Shown in pieces: positions 55,680 through 64,000 of a DNA stretch of 64,000 nt; position 1 is the stretch's first letter; every line of letters starts with the position of its first letter. The DNA is from Rouxiella sp. S1S-2. GTDB lineage: Bacteria > Pseudomonadota > Gammaproteobacteria > Enterobacterales > Enterobacteriaceae. Made by a program: the position numbers and the translations under genes. Location: contig NZ_WFKL01000001.1 of assembly GCF_009208105.1 (NCBI RefSeq), forward strand, positions 1,736,001-1,800,000, given 5' to 3'. Under the pieces are notes generated by a model. The model was not told the origin of the DNA, made no database searches, and saw nothing but the letters and a program-made list of their open reading frames with translations.

Positions 55680-56336
55680 ATGAAGTATAAATCTGTGAAG
55701 TCTGTGTGCTTGGCAGCCTTTCTTATGGCCAGCCATAATGCTTTTGCTGAAGAAAGTGCCCTTCAAGAAGGCGGCAAACCTTTAAGTGTAGTTACCAGCG
55801 ATGGTAAAGAAAGAACCATAAGTGATTGTAAGCAATTTACCTTTTTAAGATTGAATGATTTGAAAATATCAAAAATAAACGGGTTATCTGATCCGGACTG
55901 GATAGATGCTAAAAACTCCCTTACAGGTTGTTACATAGATTGGTACGTCAAGGAAAACAAACTAACTTTAGATAACACTGCCAAAACTCCAAACATCAAA
56001 GATGTGCTCTCACACTTTCCAGCAAGCGAGGCTTACTTTGTAAACAAAGATGAGCAGGCTAAAATTAAAAAAAATAGCTCCGGTAAGTCAATTCTCGAAT
56101 ATACACCTTCTCTAAAAATTAATGATAGGAAAATGATTTCTGATAAAGAAGGGGTAAGCTATAGTGTATGGTGGTTTGCAAGTTATAAAAATGAAAATGG
56201 CGATTTGGTCAGTTTTATAACCATTGGTTCTGGAGTAACTCAAGGTACTCAATCTATTTTGAAAAGTTACATAATAAAATCAACCCAAGGTAAAATCTGG
56301 GACGTCAAAGAATTAGATGAGAACTCACCAATTTGA
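55680..56336 (+). CDS. secreted protein, candidate immunity protein for the neighbouring muramidase
   Basis: The 218-residue protein starts at the ATG at 55680 after AGAGAGGAAT, with a signal peptide (KYKSVKSVCLAAFLMASHNAFA). The mature protein is Lys/Ser/Asn-rich with two Cys (SDCKQF, LTGCYIDWY) that may form a disulfide, and it has no lipobox. I do not recognise a family. It is AT-rich, unlike the phage genes around it. It is convergent with the lysozyme-type bacteriocin gene, the stops being 34 bases apart, which is how immunity genes of several colicins lie. A periplasmic location fits protection against a peptidoglycan hydrolase. The role is inferred. Confidence 0.6.
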   Translation: MKYKSVKSVCLAAFLMASHNAFAEESALQEGGKPLSVVTSDGKERTISDCKQFTFLRLNDLKISKINGLSDPDWIDAKNSLTGCYIDWYVKENKLTLDNTAKTPNIKDVLSHFPASEAYFVNKDEQAKIKKNSSGKSILEYTPSLKINDRKMISDKEGVSYSVWWFASYKNENGDLVSFITIGSGVTQGTQSILKSYIIKSTQGKIWDVKELDENSPI

Positions 56337-56369
56337 AAATCAAGCCCCCATCTAATGGGGGCCATAATA

Positions 56370-57182
56370 TTAACCCTTAGCGGCAGAAAGTAGCTGGTTT
56401 TTAGTAGCATCATTTCGTGCATCTTGAATTCCAGTTCTGTGAGATTCAGCTGCTGCAGTATTCCAATCTCGACGGTTTATGGCTGCATTGAAATTCGGAA
56501 ACTCATTTTTTAAATTTGTAAGACCAAGGTTATAAATCATATCATGCAAAGCAACTTTGGCGTCTGCTGGGAAGTCACCATAGCCAGAGTACAAGCTCTC
56601 CAGTGCTGATTGATCGCTAATGGTACGAGTTATTAGTGACTGACCAATTTGATCATCATTAAGAACAATGCTGCTTGCGGCCCAAGCTGATCTTTTATTC
56701 TTAATAGTTGGATCATTGAAGACATCTTTCACATGTTGATATGCTGCTGCGACCTGATCATCACTCGCTGAAGTATAAGATATTTCGTCATCTCCATGTG
56801 CGTGGAAAGTATTCCTTTTACCGAATTTCATTTTTTTTGCATCATCTACATTAGACAGAAGAGTGCCAATACCCACGGTTACGTTGCCTTTAGTATCCGC
56901 ATACATATTATGTACGAGCCCTTCCCACTTAATCGTGTTATCTACAATGCGTGCAAGTTCGTCAGAACCAATTCCTGCATTTGATGCTGCTTTATTGTAA
57001 TTATTTAAATTTAAATATCCACCATGTGTTGTTCCTGGTTGTGCTGTGGCTGTGTTATTACCAGTACTTCCTGCTTTGTAGGAAGTACTTCCAAATTGAC
57101 TTGGATCATAGTTAGTAATATCACCATAAGGTGTCTGACTCACACCCCAGCCATCACCTTGATTATCGTTAATACCACTCAT
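56370..57182 (-). CDS. bacteriocin-like muramidase (colicin-like N-terminus, T4-lysozyme/pesticin-type domain)
   Basis: The protein has 270 residues from the ATG at 57182 (AAGGAAATGAGA upstream). Residues 1-75 are rich in Gly, Asn, Ser and Thr and start MSGINDNQGDGWGVSQTPYG, like the disordered translocation regions of colicins. No signal peptide is present. From about residue 76 there is a T4-lysozyme-type domain with the catalytic triad E87, D96 and T102 in KWEGLVHNMYADTKGNVTVG. The C-terminal half also follows the T4L pattern (ALHDMIYNLG, RRDWNTAAAESHRTG). A LexA box lies upstream. A separate endolysin exists at 62557, so this is not needed for host lysis. It most likely kills related cells. 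Confidence 0.8.
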   Translation of the reverse strand: MSGINDNQGDGWGVSQTPYGDITNYDPSQFGSTSYKAGSTGNNTATAQPGTTHGGYLNLNNYNKAASNAGIGSDELARIVDNTIKWEGLVHNMYADTKGNVTVGIGTLLSNVDDAKKMKFGKRNTFHAHGDDEISYTSASDDQVAAAYQHVKDVFNDPTIKNKRSAWAASSIVLNDDQIGQSLITRTISDQSALESLYSGYGDFPADAKVALHDMIYNLGLTNLKNEFPNFNAAINRRDWNTAAAESHRTGIQDARNDATKNQLLSAAKG

Positions 57183-57235
57183 TCTCATTTCCTTTTTAAA
57201 ATTTAATTGAAGCTGATTAGTACACAGTAGAGATG

Positions 57236-57251
57236 CTGTGTTTATATACAG
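57236..57251. promoter_or_regulatory. LexA (SOS) box upstream of the bacteriocin-like gene
   Basis: CTGT-GTTTATAT-ACAG is a perfect CTGT-N8-ACAG site, extended to TACTGTATATAAACACAG on the coding strand. It is 54 bases upstream of the ATG. A second, degenerate half-site lies at about 57212-57227, recalling the double boxes of colicin genes. Confidence 0.82.
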
Positions 57252-57253
57252 TA

Positions 57254-57797
57254 ATTGTGGGGTGATTTATTTGCAAGGTTTATTTAGATTTTTATAACTA
57301 ACTAAAATTAGCTTGCTGGTATTCAGTGTTAGACCGTTTCAAAACGTGATGCTTACATAAGAAGCAAGCATGAAGGTTTTATGATTAATTCATTGATTTT
57401 ATTATTAAATGAGTGAATTTTTTAACGAGAGGTTGAGAGGGTTTCTCTTAGCGGGAAAAATTGTTGTTACTCAGTCACGGGCCAATGTGGTGTCTGGAGA
57501 ATTGATGTTATAGAAAAGTTTACATTTGAGTGAAAATCAATCGCAAGAGAGTGGTTATACATAGTCAATAATTTGCGATATCTTTTTCACATTTTTTAAT
57601 AGTCACAAGCTGTAATTTCTCGATTTTCATTTATCGATATGTTGTAAGACGACATATACATATGTAGGAGTGGTTAAACTAAATCTATTAATTATATGCA
57701 TTTGTATTTGATTTATTTTTGGCTAATTGTTGAACATGTGCGGGCAGGGATGCAACAAGGGATTGCACGTTAAAACAAGTTGAAACAAGGGGTTGGG
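57254..57797. other. AT-rich gap, no gene seen
   Basis: These 540 bases hold no convincing coding frame, RNA gene or terminator. They separate the bacteriocin gene from the Q region. Confidence 0.45.
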
Positions 57798-57992
57798 ATG
57801 AAAGGTTATATACCTATCAAAGGAGTGAAATTTGCTTTGCCTGAAAACGGGCGGGTACTGGTTTTTATTGAAAATGGGAAAATGTCGAGCGCAGAATTAT
57901 TACGCCCCGACCAGCATGTCGCAAGTCTGGCTGTATTGCTCGAACTAGCAGGTCAGGCCGGATATCGTGTCACAAAGCCTGAATTAGATTAA
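57798..57992 (+). CDS. hypothetical prophage protein (64 aa)
   Basis: The protein has 64 residues from the ATG at 57798 behind AAGGGG. It reads MKGYIPIKGVKFALPENGRV, then a helical C-terminal half (SLAVLLELAGQAGYRVTKP). It has no signal or membrane segment. It lies in the nin-type interval before Q, where small phage genes are common. The family is not recognised. Confidence 0.6.
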   Translation: MKGYIPIKGVKFALPENGRVLVFIENGKMSSAELLRPDQHVASLAVLLELAGQAGYRVTKPELD

Positions 57993-58087
57993 CGACAAAA
58001 CTAAGTGAGGCGTTATAGTGTCGTTGTCAGCCTGAACAACTGATAACCCTTGAAACCGCTGTGTCTCCTTCAAAAATTGAGGTGAGA

Positions 58088-58234
58088 ATGACACAGCTAT
58101 CTACGAACAAAACAGCCCCTGTAGTATCGATGCCCGCTAATTGTAATGCTTGGGTATTAGCGTGCCTGACAATTGCTTCCTTCGAATATACCAAACAGTA
58201 TGCTGGCGAACAGCTGCTGGCGGTGCTGCTATGA
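58088..58234 (+). CDS. small prophage protein coupled to Q (48 aa)
   Basis: The ATG at 58088 follows GAGGTGAGA. The 48 codons end in TGA that overlaps the Q start as ATGA, a sign of coupled translation. It includes NCNAWVLACLTIASFEYTKQ, with two Cys. The function is unknown. Confidence 0.5.
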   Translation: MTQLSTNKTAPVVSMPANCNAWVLACLTIASFEYTKQYAGEQLLAVLL

Positions 58235-58590
58235 CTCGCTTAATAGATGAGGGAAGGGATATACATACCCTTTTGGAACTTTGGGGAGCTTGGGCAGCCA
58301 GTGATAACAGCGGGCTGGATTTCTCCAACGTTGCGGCCGGATTTAGAGGTCTGCTGCCGTCGACGTCAAAGACTCGGATGCAGTGTAATGACGATGAAGG
58401 GATTTTGATCGACGGCTGCGTGGCGCGTTTAAAACAGCACAGGCCAAAGGAGTATGAGTTGGTGGTGCTGCACTTTGTCTATGGGGTGTCGTTGAGAGCA
58501 ATAGCTAAAAGGCGGAAGTGTTCTGATGGGACGGTTAGGAAGGATATGGGGATGGCTGAGGGGTTTATTGAAGGTAGAATTTTGTCGTAA
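58231..58590 (+). CDS. antitermination protein Q (phage 82/QuuD type)
   Basis: The protein has 119 residues from the ATG at 58231. It fits the short Q family: LLELWGAWAASDNSGLDFSNVAAGFRGLLPS, DDEGILIDGCVARLKQHRPKEYELVVLHFVYGVSLRAIAKRRKCSDGTVRKDMGMAEGFIEG, where the last part is an HTH. Q binds at the late promoter and lets RNA polymerase pass the terminator ahead of the lysis genes. A terminator in the right place is at 60957. Confidence 0.88.
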   Translation: MTRLIDEGRDIHTLLELWGAWAASDNSGLDFSNVAAGFRGLLPSTSKTRMQCNDDEGILIDGCVARLKQHRPKEYELVVLHFVYGVSLRAIAKRRKCSDGTVRKDMGMAEGFIEGRILS

Positions 58591-58660
58591 CTATTGTACT
58601 TCGCCACTAGCCATTAATAGCAGCGAAGTTTCAAATTTATTTATTGTAATATTTAATTTT

Positions 58661-59044
58661 TTAAATATTTAAAACATTAGGTATACGGGGTTTTTTCGGG
58701 GTATTTATACTATCTTCATCGCTGCTTTCAATATATTCTGTGAGGAATGTGTTATCTTTTAAATATTTTTTTACTTCATGTATGTTCATTATAAATGAAT
58801 TGCTGATGTAATCTTCATCACTACTCTCAGTAGTATTGGTTCTGATTGTGCTTGGGGAAATTTGGTCTTGATCTGATGCTTCATTTACTTTGGTTATTGT
58901 TGTCCAATTTTTGAGTGTGGCTGAGTCATCATCACTGGATTCAATTGTAAATGTGCGAGAAGTATGTCCCATGCTTAAAAGTGCACCGTGATTTATTTCT
59001 ATCTTTTCAATTGTCTCGCTATATAGCATAATATAAGGTTTCAT
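58661..59044 (-). CDS. candidate graspetide precursor with four acidic core repeats
   Basis: The 127-residue protein starts at the ATG at 59044 (AGGAGATGC upstream). After a leader of about 30 residues it carries four copies of an acidic motif: ESSDDDSA from residue 35, EASDQDQI from 55, ESSDEDYI from 73, and ESSDEDSI from 106. These are joined by Thr/Ser/Lys/Asn-rich linkers (TTITK, TIRTNT, NTFLTEY). Repeats that pair Ser/Thr with Asp/Glu are what ATP-grasp ligases cross-link in graspetides. It overlaps the membrane-protein gene by 26 bases. No signal peptide is present. The assignment depends on the neighbouring ligase; no described precursor family is recognised. Confidence 0.7.
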   Translation of the reverse strand: MKPYIMLYSETIEKIEINHGALLSMGHTSRTFTIESSDDDSATLKNWTTITKVNEASDQDQISPSTIRTNTTESSDEDYISNSFIMNIHEVKKYLKDNTFLTEYIESSDEDSINTPKKPRIPNVLNI

Positions 59045-59912
59045 TTTGCATCTCCTGATATAAACTGTTGGTTGGATAATTGCTGTGAGACTCTATAATA
59101 ATGTTATTTCCTGAGTTACTAGGTTTTACTACTTGTGGTATATAGGAAAGCGACAGCGTGATTATACCAATCACAATTATTCTATACATATACTTTTCTG
59201 AGTTTTTTAGTATACCTACAAAATACTCTGTATCATTTTTACTTGCTGTCCAATCTCTATACAATGACTTTGCTAGCGCATCTGATCCACTGTCTGTCCT
59301 TAAGTCTTTAAATGAAGATCTGTGAAAACTATTTACGGAAAGTCCTTTTTTTATGAAAAAAGCTAAAGAAATATTGTCAAATATTATAATTAAAATCAAA
59401 TAATAATAAATTGTTTGAATTATCAAAAATTCGCAATTGAAATTTACAGTAAATAAATAAGTAATTACACCAAAAAAAGCCAGCATAATAGTTAAATAAT
59501 AGGATATCCTATTATATACATTGCTTATCGAATCATTGCATTCAGAAATACGCTGAGTGAGGAAGGCCTCTTGTTGATTTAATTGATTTAGTTCTAACTT
59601 TGATGATACATTTTGTTCGTATTGTTTAACAAGAGTATCAATGCATTGACTACCAATTCTTTTTTGAATCGAATCAAATTTTAAACTATAAAAAAATTTA
59701 AAATTTTTCCTTGAAAAGACAGTCGTCCCTATTATTTTATAGGTGAGAAAATATAATATCTTCTCACCTAGCGGGATTTGTAGGAATGATATTCGGAAGT
59801 CCCTAAAATTATTTTTCCCATCAACTGTATCAAAGTTCATATCATGTGATACATGCAGTAGCAGCGAGCAATTAAAAATTTTCGCTAAGAAATAAAGAGA
59901 TTTATTAATCAT
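59019..59912 (-). CDS. membrane protein of the ATP-grasp operon
   Basis: The 297-residue protein has a polar N-terminal half with a likely coiled coil (residues about 80-135, KLELNQLNQQEAFLTQRISE). Two close membrane helices follow at about 138-156 and 162-187, then a soluble loop (about 190-240, RTDSGSDALAKSLYRDWTAS), a third helix at about 242-262 and a 35-residue tail. It has no ABC or peptidase motif, so it is not a usual peptide exporter. Loosely, the order recalls SLATT-type membrane effectors. It overlaps both neighbours (8 and 26 bases). Composition is very AT-rich. The family is unknown to me. Confidence 0.7.
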   Translation of the reverse strand: MINKSLYFLAKIFNCSLLLHVSHDMNFDTVDGKNNFRDFRISFLQIPLGEKILYFLTYKIIGTTVFSRKNFKFFYSLKFDSIQKRIGSQCIDTLVKQYEQNVSSKLELNQLNQQEAFLTQRISECNDSISNVYNRISYYLTIMLAFFGVITYLFTVNFNCEFLIIQTIYYYLILIIIFDNISLAFFIKKGLSVNSFHRSSFKDLRTDSGSDALAKSLYRDWTASKNDTEYFVGILKNSEKYMYRIIVIGIITLSLSYIPQVVKPSNSGNNIIIESHSNYPTNSLYQEMQNETLYYAI

Positions 59913-60807
59913 TTAAATATCTCAATATTGATTTTGATATTTGCAAGTCAGTTTCTTGCTCAAGCCAAGCCCATTGTCCATTTGCATTCATTTCTAAAAA
60001 AAACCACTCACATTGGGATATTATAAAATCGAAACAACCAAATTTCAATCCATAATTATCCATGTAATTTAAACATTTTTCTTTGATACTTTGCGGTAAT
60101 TTATATTTTGAGTATGAAATGATATTATCTTTTTTTCTCCAATCAATCTTGTTCTCTGATTCTATCTTAACTGTGAAGTCCTCTTGGTCAACGAAAGTAG
60201 CTCTAATTTCGAAATCCTTGGTTGTATATTCTTGAAAATAACTTGGCGAGAATTTTAAAAAATTCGTACATTTACTCTTATCATAAATATTTGTTTGCAC
60301 GTATTCTTTCTCATATTGACTTTCAATCAAACCAGAAGATAAAGGTTTGACAATTGCTGTTTCAAACCCGCTTATAGCGATACTTTCATGATTATTTGTT
60401 ATCAGGTAGTTAGGTATGTTAAAACCATAAGACTCTGCGACTCTTGTTTGTAATATTTTATTGTCAGCCCTTCTCATTAGCGAGGGTTTAGATAAACATC
60501 TTCGCTCAAAAGATTCAACAATCCCATCTATTAAAGAGAAAACCTCTCTGAAGCAATGCGTCCAATATTTATAGTCAATTTTTTTATCAAGATCTTCAGG
60601 TGTAGGTTTTCTATAATATATTGATTGGCAATTTGACTCCCTAAGTATTCCATTATTTTTTGATGAAATCACAAAACCTTCTCTTGTAAAAGAAATTTTG
60701 TAATCAGAAAAAAAGTCTACATTTAGTTTGTAAAAATTGTTTACTCCATGTTTATTAACTATATAGTCGATAGTTTTGTCAAAGCTTGATGTTACTACAA
60801 GTATCAT
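59905..60807 (-). CDS. ATP-grasp peptide ligase, MvdD/MvdC (graspetide synthetase) type
   Basis: The 300-residue protein starts at the ATG at 60807 behind AAAGGAGAGC. It opens with the pre-ATP-grasp domain of the MvdD group (MILVVTSSFDKTIDYIVNKH) and the marker SIYYRKPTPEDL at 62-73. The ATP-grasp core shows the nucleotide-binding Lys in AIVKPLSSGL (154), FQEYTTKDFEIRATFV (191-206), and metal ligands D260, E272 and N274 in FFLEMNANGQWAWLEQ. Such enzymes join Ser/Thr/Lys side chains to Asp/Glu in a precursor peptide. It is the first gene of a three-gene operon with membrane protein and repeat-bearing substrate candidate. Confidence 0.85.
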   Translation of the reverse strand: MILVVTSSFDKTIDYIVNKHGVNNFYKLNVDFFSDYKISFTREGFVISSKNNGILRESNCQSIYYRKPTPEDLDKKIDYKYWTHCFREVFSLIDGIVESFERRCLSKPSLMRRADNKILQTRVAESYGFNIPNYLITNNHESIAISGFETAIVKPLSSGLIESQYEKEYVQTNIYDKSKCTNFLKFSPSYFQEYTTKDFEIRATFVDQEDFTVKIESENKIDWRKKDNIISYSKYKLPQSIKEKCLNYMDNYGLKFGCFDFIISQCEWFFLEMNANGQWAWLEQETDLQISKSILRYLND

Positions 60808-60839
60808 TTTGCTCTCCTTTGCAGTATTTTTATAACTTT

Positions 60840-60868
60840 ATATTACAAAAATCCTAACGCGTACGCAA
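60840..60868 (-). promoter_or_regulatory. promoter of the ATP-grasp operon
   Basis: Minus strand: -35 TTGCGT (60868-60863), 17-base spacer, -10 TAATAT (60845-60840), 33 bases upstream of the ATG. No LexA box is seen, so expression may be constitutive in the lysogen. Confidence 0.65.
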
Positions 60869-60956
60869 AACATCTTGTAACCTGTTAAGAGTGGTCACTT
60901 AACACGGTGCTTACGAAATCCCAACCCTGATCAGTGGGAGTGTTGTTGTTAGTACC

Positions 60957-60994
60957 AAAAAAAACCCTTTCTCTTACGAGTCAGGGCTTTTTTG
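60957..60994. terminator. bidirectional terminator, possible tR'-type target of Q
   Basis: AAAAAACCCT and AGGGCTTTTTT flank a 16-base loop with an A-run before and a T-run after. It lies between Q and the methyltransferase/lysis genes in the plus direction, where the Q-dependent leader terminator is expected. Confidence 0.65.
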
Positions 60995-61128
60995 TATGTG
61001 GAAATAGGCGGCAGTATCCGCGCCTCAACATCGACCTCTCAAGACGCTTACGTGAGCACAAGCAACCTAAAACTCCCTGCTACACACCCGCACCGGATGA
61101 TACCTATCCAAAAGGCCACTTCCGATCT

Positions 61129-62226
61129 ATGAAAAGTACTTTAAATTCAGATGGTTTTAATCTATTTAACGCCGATTCACTTCAATTTATTCAGACCTTA
61201 CCCGACAACTGTATCGACCTGATCGCCACTGACCCGCCTTACTTTCGAGTTAAAACCTGCTCCTGGGATAACCAATGGAAAAGTGAGCAAGACTATTTAG
61301 CTTGGCTCGATGAGATGATCGGGCAGTTCTGGCGAGTGTTGAAACCGTCGGGCAGCTTATATATGTTTTGCAGTTCGTGGCTGGTGTCCGATACAGAGAG
61401 TTTGCTGCGACAGCGGTTGAAAATATTGAATCACATAATTTGGGCTAAGCCCTCTGGCCCGTGGAACCTTCAAAATAAAGCCAGCCTGAGGTGTTTCTTT
61501 CCGGCGACTGAGCGTGTTCTCTTTGCAGAACATTATGCAGGGCCTTATAAGCCGAAGAATAATGGCTACACGGATAAATGCCGCGAGTTAAAACAAAACG
61601 TGTTTAGACCGTTAATCGACTATTTCAGGGATGCTCGTCGATTTCTCGGTATTTCTTCAAAGGCCATCAATCAGGCCACGGGTAAACAAATGTCCAGCCA
61701 CTGGTTCAGCGACAGTCAGTGGCAGTTGCCGAATCAGCAGGATTATTGCGCTTTGCAGTCTCTTTTTCAGCGTCTGGCGATTGAAAAATGCCAGGCTGGT
61801 GGACTGGGTCGATGCTATCAAGACCTTAAGGCGGAGCATCAAGTTTTAAGTAAAAGCTACCATGAACTACAGAATGAGTATTCATCATTACGAAGACCCT
61901 TTGTTGTCTCATCCAGCGTGCCGTTTACCGATGTCTGGCATTATCCTTCGGTACCCTATTATCCAGGCAAACACCCTTGCGAGAAACCGGCGGCAATGAT
62001 GGACCACATCGTTCAAGCCAGCTCACGCGAAGGTGATGTTGTGGCCGACTTTTTCATGGGATCGGGAGCAACGATAAAGGCTGCCATTAAGCACCGACGA
62101 AATTTTATTGGGGTCGAACTGGAGGCCGAGCGGTTCCAGCAAACACAGACTGAAATTCTTGAGGCCCATAGCGGGCCTTTTTCTTTTATGCGTTTCCAGC
62201 AAGATGGCGACAGGCGGAGATCATGA
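61129..62226 (+). CDS. phage DNA methyltransferase (beta class, DPPY)
   Basis: The protein has 365 residues from the ATG at 61129; in-frame codons further upstream cross the terminator at 60957 and are unlikely to be used. The catalytic DPPY is at 35-38 (DLIATDPPYFR) and the SAM-binding FxGxG (VADFFMGSGATIKAA) is near the C-terminus. This order, IV before I, defines beta-class N6-adenine or N4-cytosine enzymes. A long middle part may read the target. No restriction partner is adjacent, so it is an orphan modification gene, likely protecting phage DNA. It overlaps the holin start by four bases. Confidence 0.88.
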   Translation: MKSTLNSDGFNLFNADSLQFIQTLPDNCIDLIATDPPYFRVKTCSWDNQWKSEQDYLAWLDEMIGQFWRVLKPSGSLYMFCSSWLVSDTESLLRQRLKILNHIIWAKPSGPWNLQNKASLRCFFPATERVLFAEHYAGPYKPKNNGYTDKCRELKQNVFRPLIDYFRDARRFLGISSKAINQATGKQMSSHWFSDSQWQLPNQQDYCALQSLFQRLAIEKCQAGGLGRCYQDLKAEHQVLSKSYHELQNEYSSLRRPFVVSSSVPFTDVWHYPSVPYYPGKHPCEKPAAMMDHIVQASSREGDVVADFFMGSGATIKAAIKHRRNFIGVELEAERFQQTQTEILEAHSGPFSFMRFQQDGDRRRS

Positions 62227-62570
62227 AAATGCAAAATAGCCCTTATACGTGGTCAGGATGGGTTGAATTATTCCAATCGTGGTGGCGGGGTGATGTGCCT
62301 ATAGGTGGTGTGCTTTTATCCGTGGTCATGGCAGTACTGCGGGTGGCCTACACTGGAGGCGGATGGAAAAAAACATTTCTTGAAGGACTAATCTGCGGAG
62401 GTCTGACCCTCACAGCAGTCTCTGCTCTCGATTATTTTTCACTGCACAAAGATTTGACTCCAGCTGTGGGCGGGTTGATTGGATTCATGGGGGTCGAGCA
62501 AATCCGACGTTTGGCATTTCGTTTTGTCGGCAACCGATTAGATGGTGGGCATCGTAATGAAAATAAGTAG
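62223..62570 (+). CDS. phage holin (class II/lambda-holin-3 family)
   Basis: The 115-residue protein has hydrophobic helices in GGVLLSVVMAVLRVAYTGG, LEGLICGGLTLTAVSALDYF and LTPAVGGLIGFMGVEQI, and a basic tail (RFVGNRLDGGHRNENK). It forms the membrane holes that start lysis. The start overlaps the methyltransferase stop (ATGA), and its end overlaps the endolysin start. Confidence 0.86.
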   Translation: MKMQNSPYTWSGWVELFQSWWRGDVPIGGVLLSVVMAVLRVAYTGGGWKKTFLEGLICGGLTLTAVSALDYFSLHKDLTPAVGGLIGFMGVEQIRRLAFRFVGNRLDGGHRNENK

Positions 62571-63511: not shown

Positions 63512-64000
63512 TTATTGCCAAATTGGAGCAGTAGATGAATCATAAAATTCTATAACAATATTACGAGAGCTTAAAAATGCATTTGCATTAGCAATCGAGC
63601 GTAAGTTTGAGTGGGAATTCTCATCACCATAAATGCCAACAAAAATTTTCTCAACGTTACTTTCCTTAATTTTATCGAAAATATGCCTGTCATTTTCATC
63701 AATAGAGTGGCCATGGATAAAAAGATTACCGCTAAGCTTTTTTAAAGACAAATAACATGAATTTAAATAAGGGTTATGTTTTATTCGTTCGAGCTTTTTG
63801 TCAGCAGTTGGTTCTGAAACGAACAAAGGGAAGTTACCATTATTAAGATTTGTTCTTACTTGTTCAGAGATACTCTCATTTAAGTTACCATTGAAAGCTA
63901 TTTTATGAATAGATGTTCCGGTATCGTACAAATGAAGACCACCATGTAAAAAGAAGATGCTCTGTTCTTCACGAGCGATCCAAGTTGTACCCATAAAGCC
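63512..64000 (-). CDS. DUF4917-like protein, N-terminal part beyond window
   Basis: The frame is open to the right edge; the ATG at 63994 is probably internal, since family members are about twice this long. The visible 160 residues read SIFFLHGGLHLYDTGTSIHKIAF, PLFVSEPTADKKLERIKHNPYL, LFIHGHSIDENDRHIFDKI, KIFVGIYGDENS, which fits the DUF4917 group with SIR2-like relatives. It is AT-rich and points against the lysis genes, as prophage cargo genes do. A defence role is possible but not shown. Confidence 0.65.
   Translation of the reverse strand, partial: GFMGTTWIAREEQSIFFLHGGLHLYDTGTSIHKIAFNGNLNESISEQVRTNLNNGNFPLFVSEPTADKKLERIKHNPYLNSCYLSLKKLSGNLFIHGHSIDENDRHIFDKIKESNVEKIFVGIYGDENSHSNLRSIANANAFLSSRNIVIEFYDSSTAPIWQ

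Follow-up and report, generated by a model that had tools for sequence, protein, structure and literature searches.

The window analysed here is a stretch of 64,000 nucleotides from Rouxiella sp. S1S-2 (contig NZ_WFKL01000001.1, positions 1,736,001 to 1,800,000), whose minus strand carries, within a lambdoid prophage, a trio of overlapping AT-rich genes (58661-60807) for an ATP-grasp ligase, a membrane protein and a repeat precursor. The trio is a conserved three-gene unit on mobile DNA and, judged by its predicted enzyme and precursor, a graspetide cluster; what is new is its prophage and defence-gene setting, the strict three-gene make-up and a membrane core common to two ligase clades. We propose, with our confidence evenly divided, that it is a conserved graspetide-type operon whose cross-linked peptide would act inside the cell, together with the membrane protein, against phage.

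Comparison of the ligase with graspetide maturase models gave matches to TIGR04187 (expectation value, E, of 7e-52), TIGR04185 (5e-42) and TIGR04184 (8e-41), all under the curated cut-offs for exact naming, and a match to the MvdD pre-ATP-grasp domain just below its cut-off. The best solved relatives of the ligase profile are CdnC (7mgv), the ATP-grasp ligases 5ig8 and 5ig9, and AMdnB (7m4s), and these synthetases, with the TIGR models at sub-cut-off scores, place the enzyme in the graspetide-synthetase family. Residues K154, R202, D260, E272 and N274, which are ATP- or metal-binding positions of ATP-grasp enzymes, are invariant in an alignment of 28 sequences; in the pairwise alignment with CdnC the last four match the same residues and the lysine is one column off. 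The reaction predicted for the ligase is the linking of precursor side chains through ester or amide bonds. A protein search at E 1e-3 returned 192 proteins including the query, the nearest others being 60-61% identical.

The precursor of the window contains four exact TxxTxxxExxDxD cores. The looser pattern TxxTxxxExx[DE]x[DE] occurs four times; in 20,000 shuffled versions of the protein it averaged 0.003 copies and never exceeded 1. In all four exact cores the Thr residues stand before Glu and Asp, in line with the Thr/Ser (or Lys) donors ahead of Asp/Glu acceptors looked for in a precursor adjacent to a graspetide ligase. Across 19 aligned precursors the leader residues M1, K2, P3, Y4, Y8 and S9 are invariant, as are T28, E35 and D38 of core 1, T48, T51, E55 and D58 of core 2, and T99, T102, E106 and D109 of core 4, while the spacers vary; TxxTxxxExxD cores number 4 to 6 per precursor in each of 15 tabulated loci. 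Residues 82-98 of the window precursor look like a decayed, lost core position. The leader also has a match to the Phhx(1,2)h motif (PYIML in the window, similar strings in the 19 precursors, with Tyr taken as hydrophobic), which is defined in PMC8939145 and reported there for about half of precursors. The two Pseudoalteromonas precursors (L013 and L018) keep TxxTxxxExxD with a variable last acidic residue, so that their cores were recognised by reading, and this variability hints at a different link pattern.

These results bear out an earlier note on this DNA, which had described an ATP-grasp ligase with intact ATP and metal residues, combined in graspetide fashion with a repeat precursor and a membrane protein. 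Its four acidic Ser/Asp repeats were correctly counted but differ in composition, the conserved positions being Thr, Thr, Glu, Asp and Asp.

A direct search with the membrane protein at E 0.01 retrieved no more than two related proteins apart from the query, and searches of Pfam, NCBIfam, PHROGs and PADLOC for its family gave nothing convincing, yet a relative adjoins every close ligase with complete context. Hydropathy places membrane segments near residues 140-158, 168-186 and 245-263. An AlphaFold2 model from 15 input sequences (mean predicted local distance difference test score 80.2, predicted template modelling score 0.75, final 34 residues unreliable) has an alpha/beta domain at residues 1-82 and long helices at 108-156, 164-192 and 212-262. 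The marine relatives have an extra C-terminal part.

Scanning genome contigs with the ligase yielded 103 loci, of which the best 80 were kept; 12 are close (46-59% identical) and the remainder are 24-44% identical. Four close loci from IMG/VR bring the total to 16, and since two (L010 and L090) stop at a contig edge, 14 have complete context. All 14 preserve the order ligase, membrane gene, precursor, and 13 are intact; the ligase homologues thus stand beside a repeat-bearing neighbour in 14/14 complete close loci, whereas among the distant relatives the trio arrangement is mostly missing. The close loci include near-copies (L008/L087, L013/L018 and L015/L017) and are not all independent. A further IMG/VR relative (L129) also has the trio. 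The trio ligases form one clade with a Shimodaira-Hasegawa-like approximate likelihood ratio support of 100 in a quick tree of 48 rows, some outgroup rows being long-branched. Pairwise distances of the three proteins correlate over 15 loci (r 0.96, 0.92 and 0.93), values reached in 0/5000 permutations, which shows joint inheritance and not contact.

Related DNA is present in 94 of 5,426 complete E. coli genomes, and 91 (about 1.7%) carry an operon sharing 95% or more identity with the L003 operon, in every case on the chromosome. The E. coli copies are borne by elements that have an integrase and a MobQ relaxase and in some cases sit at tRNA-Asn or ssrA; the annotated neighbours of the trio differ by strain: SIR2 and an ATP-binding protein, HEPN and DUF262, HNH and AAA, or a reverse transcriptase. 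The earlier note had presented the trio as a feature of a lambdoid prophage; its moron-like position in such a prophage stands, but many relatives lie in integrative elements and islands.

Defence genes are frequent around the trio. Flanking open reading frames (the longest non-overlapping ones of at least 100 residues with midpoints within 6 kb; flanks were shorter at L008, L016, L017 and L091) were compared with PADLOC models at E 1e-40. The 119 proteins flanking 13 trio loci matched 84 models, versus 9 for the 131 proteins of 13 control stretches at fixed positions in the same genomes (14 were intended, but G1026 offered no such stretch), and one protein may match several models. Named models, 25 of the 84, include HerA, type II restriction and methylase and, in two proteins, mREase_IV; the HerA and type II hits are not assigned to a particular locus. 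The control matches were SspA, DndA, mad3, mad6 and five PD-T4-6 models; the SspA/DndA match is presumably a housekeeping cysteine desulfurase.

A confirmed defence neighbour at E 1e-40 or better was present at 7 of the 13 loci. The neighbours identified individually at these seven are PglZ and BrxL of bacteriophage exclusion (BREX), PDC-S39 and Orf5/HEC-06 in one Aliivibrio locus (L012); a reverse-transcriptase defence protein, with an integrase, in another (L011); HamA and HamB of Hachiman together with Csy3, Cas8f/5f and TniQ of a transposon linked to a type I-F system of clustered regularly interspaced short palindromic repeats (CRISPR) in Shewanella (L014); GajB of Gabija in genome G023 (L110); SIR2 in Kluyvera (L008); a type IV restriction enzyme in Marinomonas (L015); and DUF4917, which is PDC-S21, in the window's own prophage (L091). 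In addition, Pfam identified an AbiEii-like neighbour in an IMG/VR locus (L088). The trio itself matches no known defence system, PADLOC 2.0.0 giving 0 families for each of its three proteins at E up to 1. The trio thus recurs on mobile DNA and among defence genes above the control level, the location looked for in an anti-phage system. In the Shewanella locus (L014:4804-17696) the trio lies between the Hachiman genes and those of the CRISPR-linked transposon, and because of these flanks it may be transposon cargo. An IMG/VR 'virus' (L087) carries the same island as the Kluyvera locus, with the trio, SIR2 and a 623-residue ATP-binding-type protein; it may not be a phage but a mobilizable element.

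We envisage that the ligase would bind the MKPYxMxYS leader of the precursor and make side-chain cross-links in each of the four cores, probably esters from core Thr to core Glu/Asp. The rigid multi-ring peptide would stay in the cell, a step we infer because the three-gene unit comes without a protease or exporter, and would bind the alpha/beta domain of the three-helix membrane protein. On infection, peptide and membrane protein may then disturb the inner membrane or block entry, with superinfection exclusion or abortive infection as the outcome. Superinfection exclusion or defence had also been put forward by the earlier note; the defence-gene neighbours give it support that is strong but indirect. 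The note's other suggestion, competition, gained no positive support in the form of a secreted product, as the conserved unit includes no exporter or protease gene.

Such a product would be a secreted graspetide, acting as a bacteriocin or protease inhibitor, with the membrane protein as its exporter or immunity protein. We consider this unlikely, if deserving of attention. The three-gene unit has no C39 peptidase, ABC exporter or other protease, three helices with an alpha/beta domain are in our judgement unlike an exporter, several neighbours are defence genes, and the window precursor has no literal GG. On the other side, graspetides of known activity are protease inhibitors, and bacteriocins are generally known to ride on mobile islands and prophages as well. 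Residues 20-21 are a GA doublet at which a GG-like cleavage could take place, and GG-like leader cleavage motifs occur in about half of precursors according to PMC8939145, which also suggests transport for the membrane proteins of thuringinin loci.

That doublet is one of several points that weigh against an intracellular anti-phage role. The membrane protein could still be an exporter or immunity protein, and a search of solved folds with it gave no informative match. The trio is rare. Among 295 genomes of the family, 3 have it at E below 1e-140 and 2 others have distant ligases; for the order and the class, at E 1e-70, the counts are 2 in 394 genomes and 1 in 369, each count including the window's own genome. 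A search of 50,697 phage records found no close relative. In L089, a locus from IMG/VR, ligase and precursor are retained with an interrupted membrane gene. Not every locus has strong defence company: the AAA protein beside L013 matches PDC-S59 less strongly (4e-27), L017 adjoins an integrase and a protein with a weak PbeA-like match (5e-11), and no defence gene was found among the 3, 2 and 2 neighbours scanned, mostly with Pfam, at L007, L009 and L016. The neighbours at L007 are an integrase and a shufflon-like protein, and those at L016 a P2-like gpA replication protein and an ion-channel domain. Finally, neighbours are company and not function, and islands carry bacteriocins and other cargo too.

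Disrupted copies in E. coli bear on a different explanation, in which the trio is a toxin-antitoxin or addiction module that keeps its element, the membrane protein being the toxin and the modified peptide its antidote. In two isolates (L004 and L111) the ligase gene is broken beside a membrane gene of intact length; in a third (L112) the ligase is shorter by 21 residues and the end of the precursor is altered, again with an intact-length membrane gene. The fourth (L113) has a shortened membrane gene and an intact ligase. These isolates were chosen for odd rows among 60 listed of 91 matches and give no rate, and in 3/4 the length change coincides with a homopolymer of at least five bases, so the broken genes may be assembly errors, which would weaken what they say for the proposed mechanism. 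As they stand, the broken and shortened ligases speak mildly against an antidote, unless they are assembly errors or the shortened ligase works, and a ligase broken beside an intact-length membrane gene suggests that the cross-linked peptide would be needed for activity. An addiction module would fit a small overlapping operon on mobile elements, as well as the membrane genes that are interrupted in L089 and shortened in L113 with ligase and precursor kept; on balance we find it improbable.

Still further from our expectation, and very unlikely, is a lysogenic-conversion trait unrelated to phage, such as an inhibitor of grazer or animal-host proteases. Microviridin-type graspetides do inhibit animal proteases, and the window trio is moron-like and opposes late transcripts. 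Its hosts, however, span Kluyvera and Enterobacter to Shewanella, Aliivibrio and Pseudoalteromonas, its constant companion is a membrane protein, and many of its neighbours are anti-phage genes.

A second ligase clade has a comparable arrangement. Distant ligases of Leptospira phage LE1 (L116) and a gut phage contig (L117) are paired with a membrane protein for which three or more helices are predicted, and the same pairing occurs in four IMG/VR loci (L118, L119, L123 and L124) and in one genome (L095) from the window's family. A repeat precursor lies upstream in L095, L117, L118, L119, L123 and L124, with TKT and ExDD in the cores of all but L117, whose cores differ; in L116 any precursor would fall below the scan cut-off, and L124, which shares its ligase start and membrane protein, has one. 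The Leptospira-phage-like precursors begin MKPLIFDY, resembling MKPYIMNY. L122 has ligase and membrane protein with no recognisable cores, and L125-L128 lack the arrangement, the ligase neighbour, where shown, being methyltransferase-like by eye. L095 and L116-L119 form a single clade in the ligase tree (support 95). The membrane families of the two clades align in hhalign with 91% probability (E 1e-6) over 141 columns of helical core, or 39% with fewer sequences, both values being pairwise and not corrected for a database. Clade 2 thus indicates that ligase, shared membrane core and repeat precursor recur with different core patterns. A still more distant ATP-grasp ligase, with a 127-residue hydrophobic protein downstream, lies at L096:1504-3104 (genome G134).

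From both clades we advance a broader proposal, tentatively and with somewhat more doubt than belief: the trio may be the first representative of a new class of anti-phage immunity in which an intracellular multi-ring peptide of ribosomal origin, cross-linked by an ATP-grasp ligase, activates a three-helix membrane effector on infection. The class would comprise at least two ligase clades (TxxTxxxExxDxD and TKT...ExDD), with prophages, integrative elements and perhaps also a CRISPR-linked transposon as its vehicles. A graspetide operon beside BREX, Hachiman, Gabija and a CRISPR-linked transposon, and at a prophage moron site, has a directly testable function, and with about 1.7% of complete E. 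coli genomes carrying the operon, tests in K-12 can use a version native to the species. If protection is found, peptide natural-product chemistry would be joined to immunity, the modified peptide being an immune part and not a secreted weapon.

Features of the window are listed in the table below. As the earlier note had it, the three genes overlap (by 8 bases between ligase and membrane gene and 26 bases between membrane gene and precursor) and are AT-rich, with a G+C content of 27-34% in 500-base windows from 58500 to 60999, compared with 41-51% in windows from 60750 to 62499 and 44-49% over the antitermination gene Q; positions 57000-57999, upstream of Q, are AT-rich as well. The site was said to lie between Q and the lysis genes, antisense to them. 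The moron-like place is confirmed, but because the methyltransferase gene precedes the holin gene, the strict neighbour is the methyltransferase and not the holin; the plus-strand order continues with holin, lysozyme and Rz. Since Q, methyltransferase and lysis genes are all on the plus strand, the trio opposes the late genes, an orientation common among morons. It adjoins a phage Q gene both here and in L009. The DUF4917 gene is complete in locus L091 (9512-10489), directly after Rz, so that two candidate defence morons, the trio and this PDC-S21 gene, flank the lysis genes of the prophage. A promoter scan at the trio gave 15 promoter-like sites with 14.3 expected and is uninformative; no terminator was found there, and an Rfam search gave no family. 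Elsewhere in the window, an AT-rich pair at 55680-57188 encodes a 218-residue protein with a start that by eye resembles a signal peptide and a convergent 272-residue protein with a phage-lysozyme domain (PF00959, E 5e-7), and may be a lysozyme-type effector with a periplasmic partner.

Table. Positions of the trio, its precursor elements and nearby genes in the window
Feature	Position	Strand	Basis or remark
Graspetide-type ATP-grasp ligase, 300 residues	59905-60807	-	TIGR maturase models and solved synthetases
Membrane protein, 297 residues, three predicted transmembrane helices	59019-59912	-	Hydropathy and AlphaFold2 model
Multi-core precursor, 127 residues, conserved leader MKPYIMLYSET	58661-59044	-	Alignment of 19 precursors
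Leader motif MKPYIMLYSET, Phhx(1,2)h type, putative binding site for the ligase	59012-59044	-	Precursor alignment
Core 1, TSRTFTIESSDDD	58925-58963	-	
Core 2, TTITKVNEASDQD	58865-58903	-	
Core 3, TIRTNTTESSDED	58811-58849	-	
Core 4, TFLTEYIESSDED	58712-58750	-	
Apparently decayed core position (residues 82-98), no TxxTxxxExxD left	58751-58801	-	Relatives carry a core there
Phage antitermination protein Q, marks the moron site	58150-58590	+	PF06530, E 7e-44
N6/N4 DNA methyltransferase	60934-62226	+	Other side of the trio from Q
DUF4917 gene, AT-rich, antisense, cut by the window edge	63512-64000	-	PADLOC candidate defence family PDC-S21

To our knowledge, most graspetides have no established role for their producers. 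The abstract of PMC8939145 speaks of microbial conflict or communication only. Among the matches listed in PubMed Central (PMC)-licensed text, a scope outside which most subscription papers fall, no graspetide defence system was found; the sole text among them with both 'graspetide' and 'antiphage' (PMC11118758) describes, in the portion available, ocean families of ribosomally synthesized and post-translationally modified peptides co-expressed with defence genes and names no graspetide system. PMC13097080 extends the 24 earlier graspetide groups by 19, the partner proteins of several being unidentified, and parts of the trio family may therefore be catalogued already.

The closest known chemistry appears to be that of a Bacillus graspetide, thuringinin, whose core we take to be TxxTxxxExxDxD; given this match, the chemistry of the trio is probably not new. 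The string itself was not found in the searched literature. Thuringinin, from Bacillus thuringiensis, is said to be group 3 of Lee et al. 2020. It resembles the window precursor in having several tandem cores; in thuringinin each repeat unit carries two ester links (PMC12291112). Its loci too have membrane proteins, uncharacterised, in cluster 18 of PMC8939145, a likeness of occurrence and not of compared sequence. The earlier note's statement that it knew of no described family with this repeat and membrane protein on a lambdoid prophage is not supported in that form. Unlike thuringinin, the trio is gammaproteobacterial, is carried by prophages and integrative elements, often among defence genes, and has its precursor last. 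No thuringinin locus was matched by tblastn with a precursor in plasmids and phages, and with a ligase in plasmids there was no Bacillus among 60 listed of 76 records.

Among solved structures, the microviridin/chryseoviridin-type enzymes MdnB, MdnC, CdnC and AMdnB come closest to the ligase (profile E 1e-44 to 2e-41), whereas their core is unlike that of the trio. Loci of this type often have two ligases, tailoring genes or export genes, and the trio unit has no second ligase, tailoring or export gene.

Abi proteins and PycTM of Pycsar offer a likeness of another kind, as membrane-acting defence systems of prophages and islands encoded by small operons on mobile DNA beside other defence genes. 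Kinship with PycTM (PF18967), a lead prompted by a clade-2 helix (RR..AdsKA.tYL), is unsupported by Pfam scans, which gave no match in 16 clade-1 membrane proteins at E up to 0.5 or in 3 clade-2 and 4 clade-1 proteins at E up to 1; a search for PycTM members for profile comparison found 0 in 149 genomes of the family and 1, below the cut-off, in 30 other genomes. The AlphaFold2 model of the membrane protein has a long helix leading into paired membrane helices, in which it may resemble PycTM. Unlike Pycsar, the trio has no nucleotide cyclase or known sensor; where Pycsar has its signalling enzyme, the trio has a peptide ligase and a repeat precursor.

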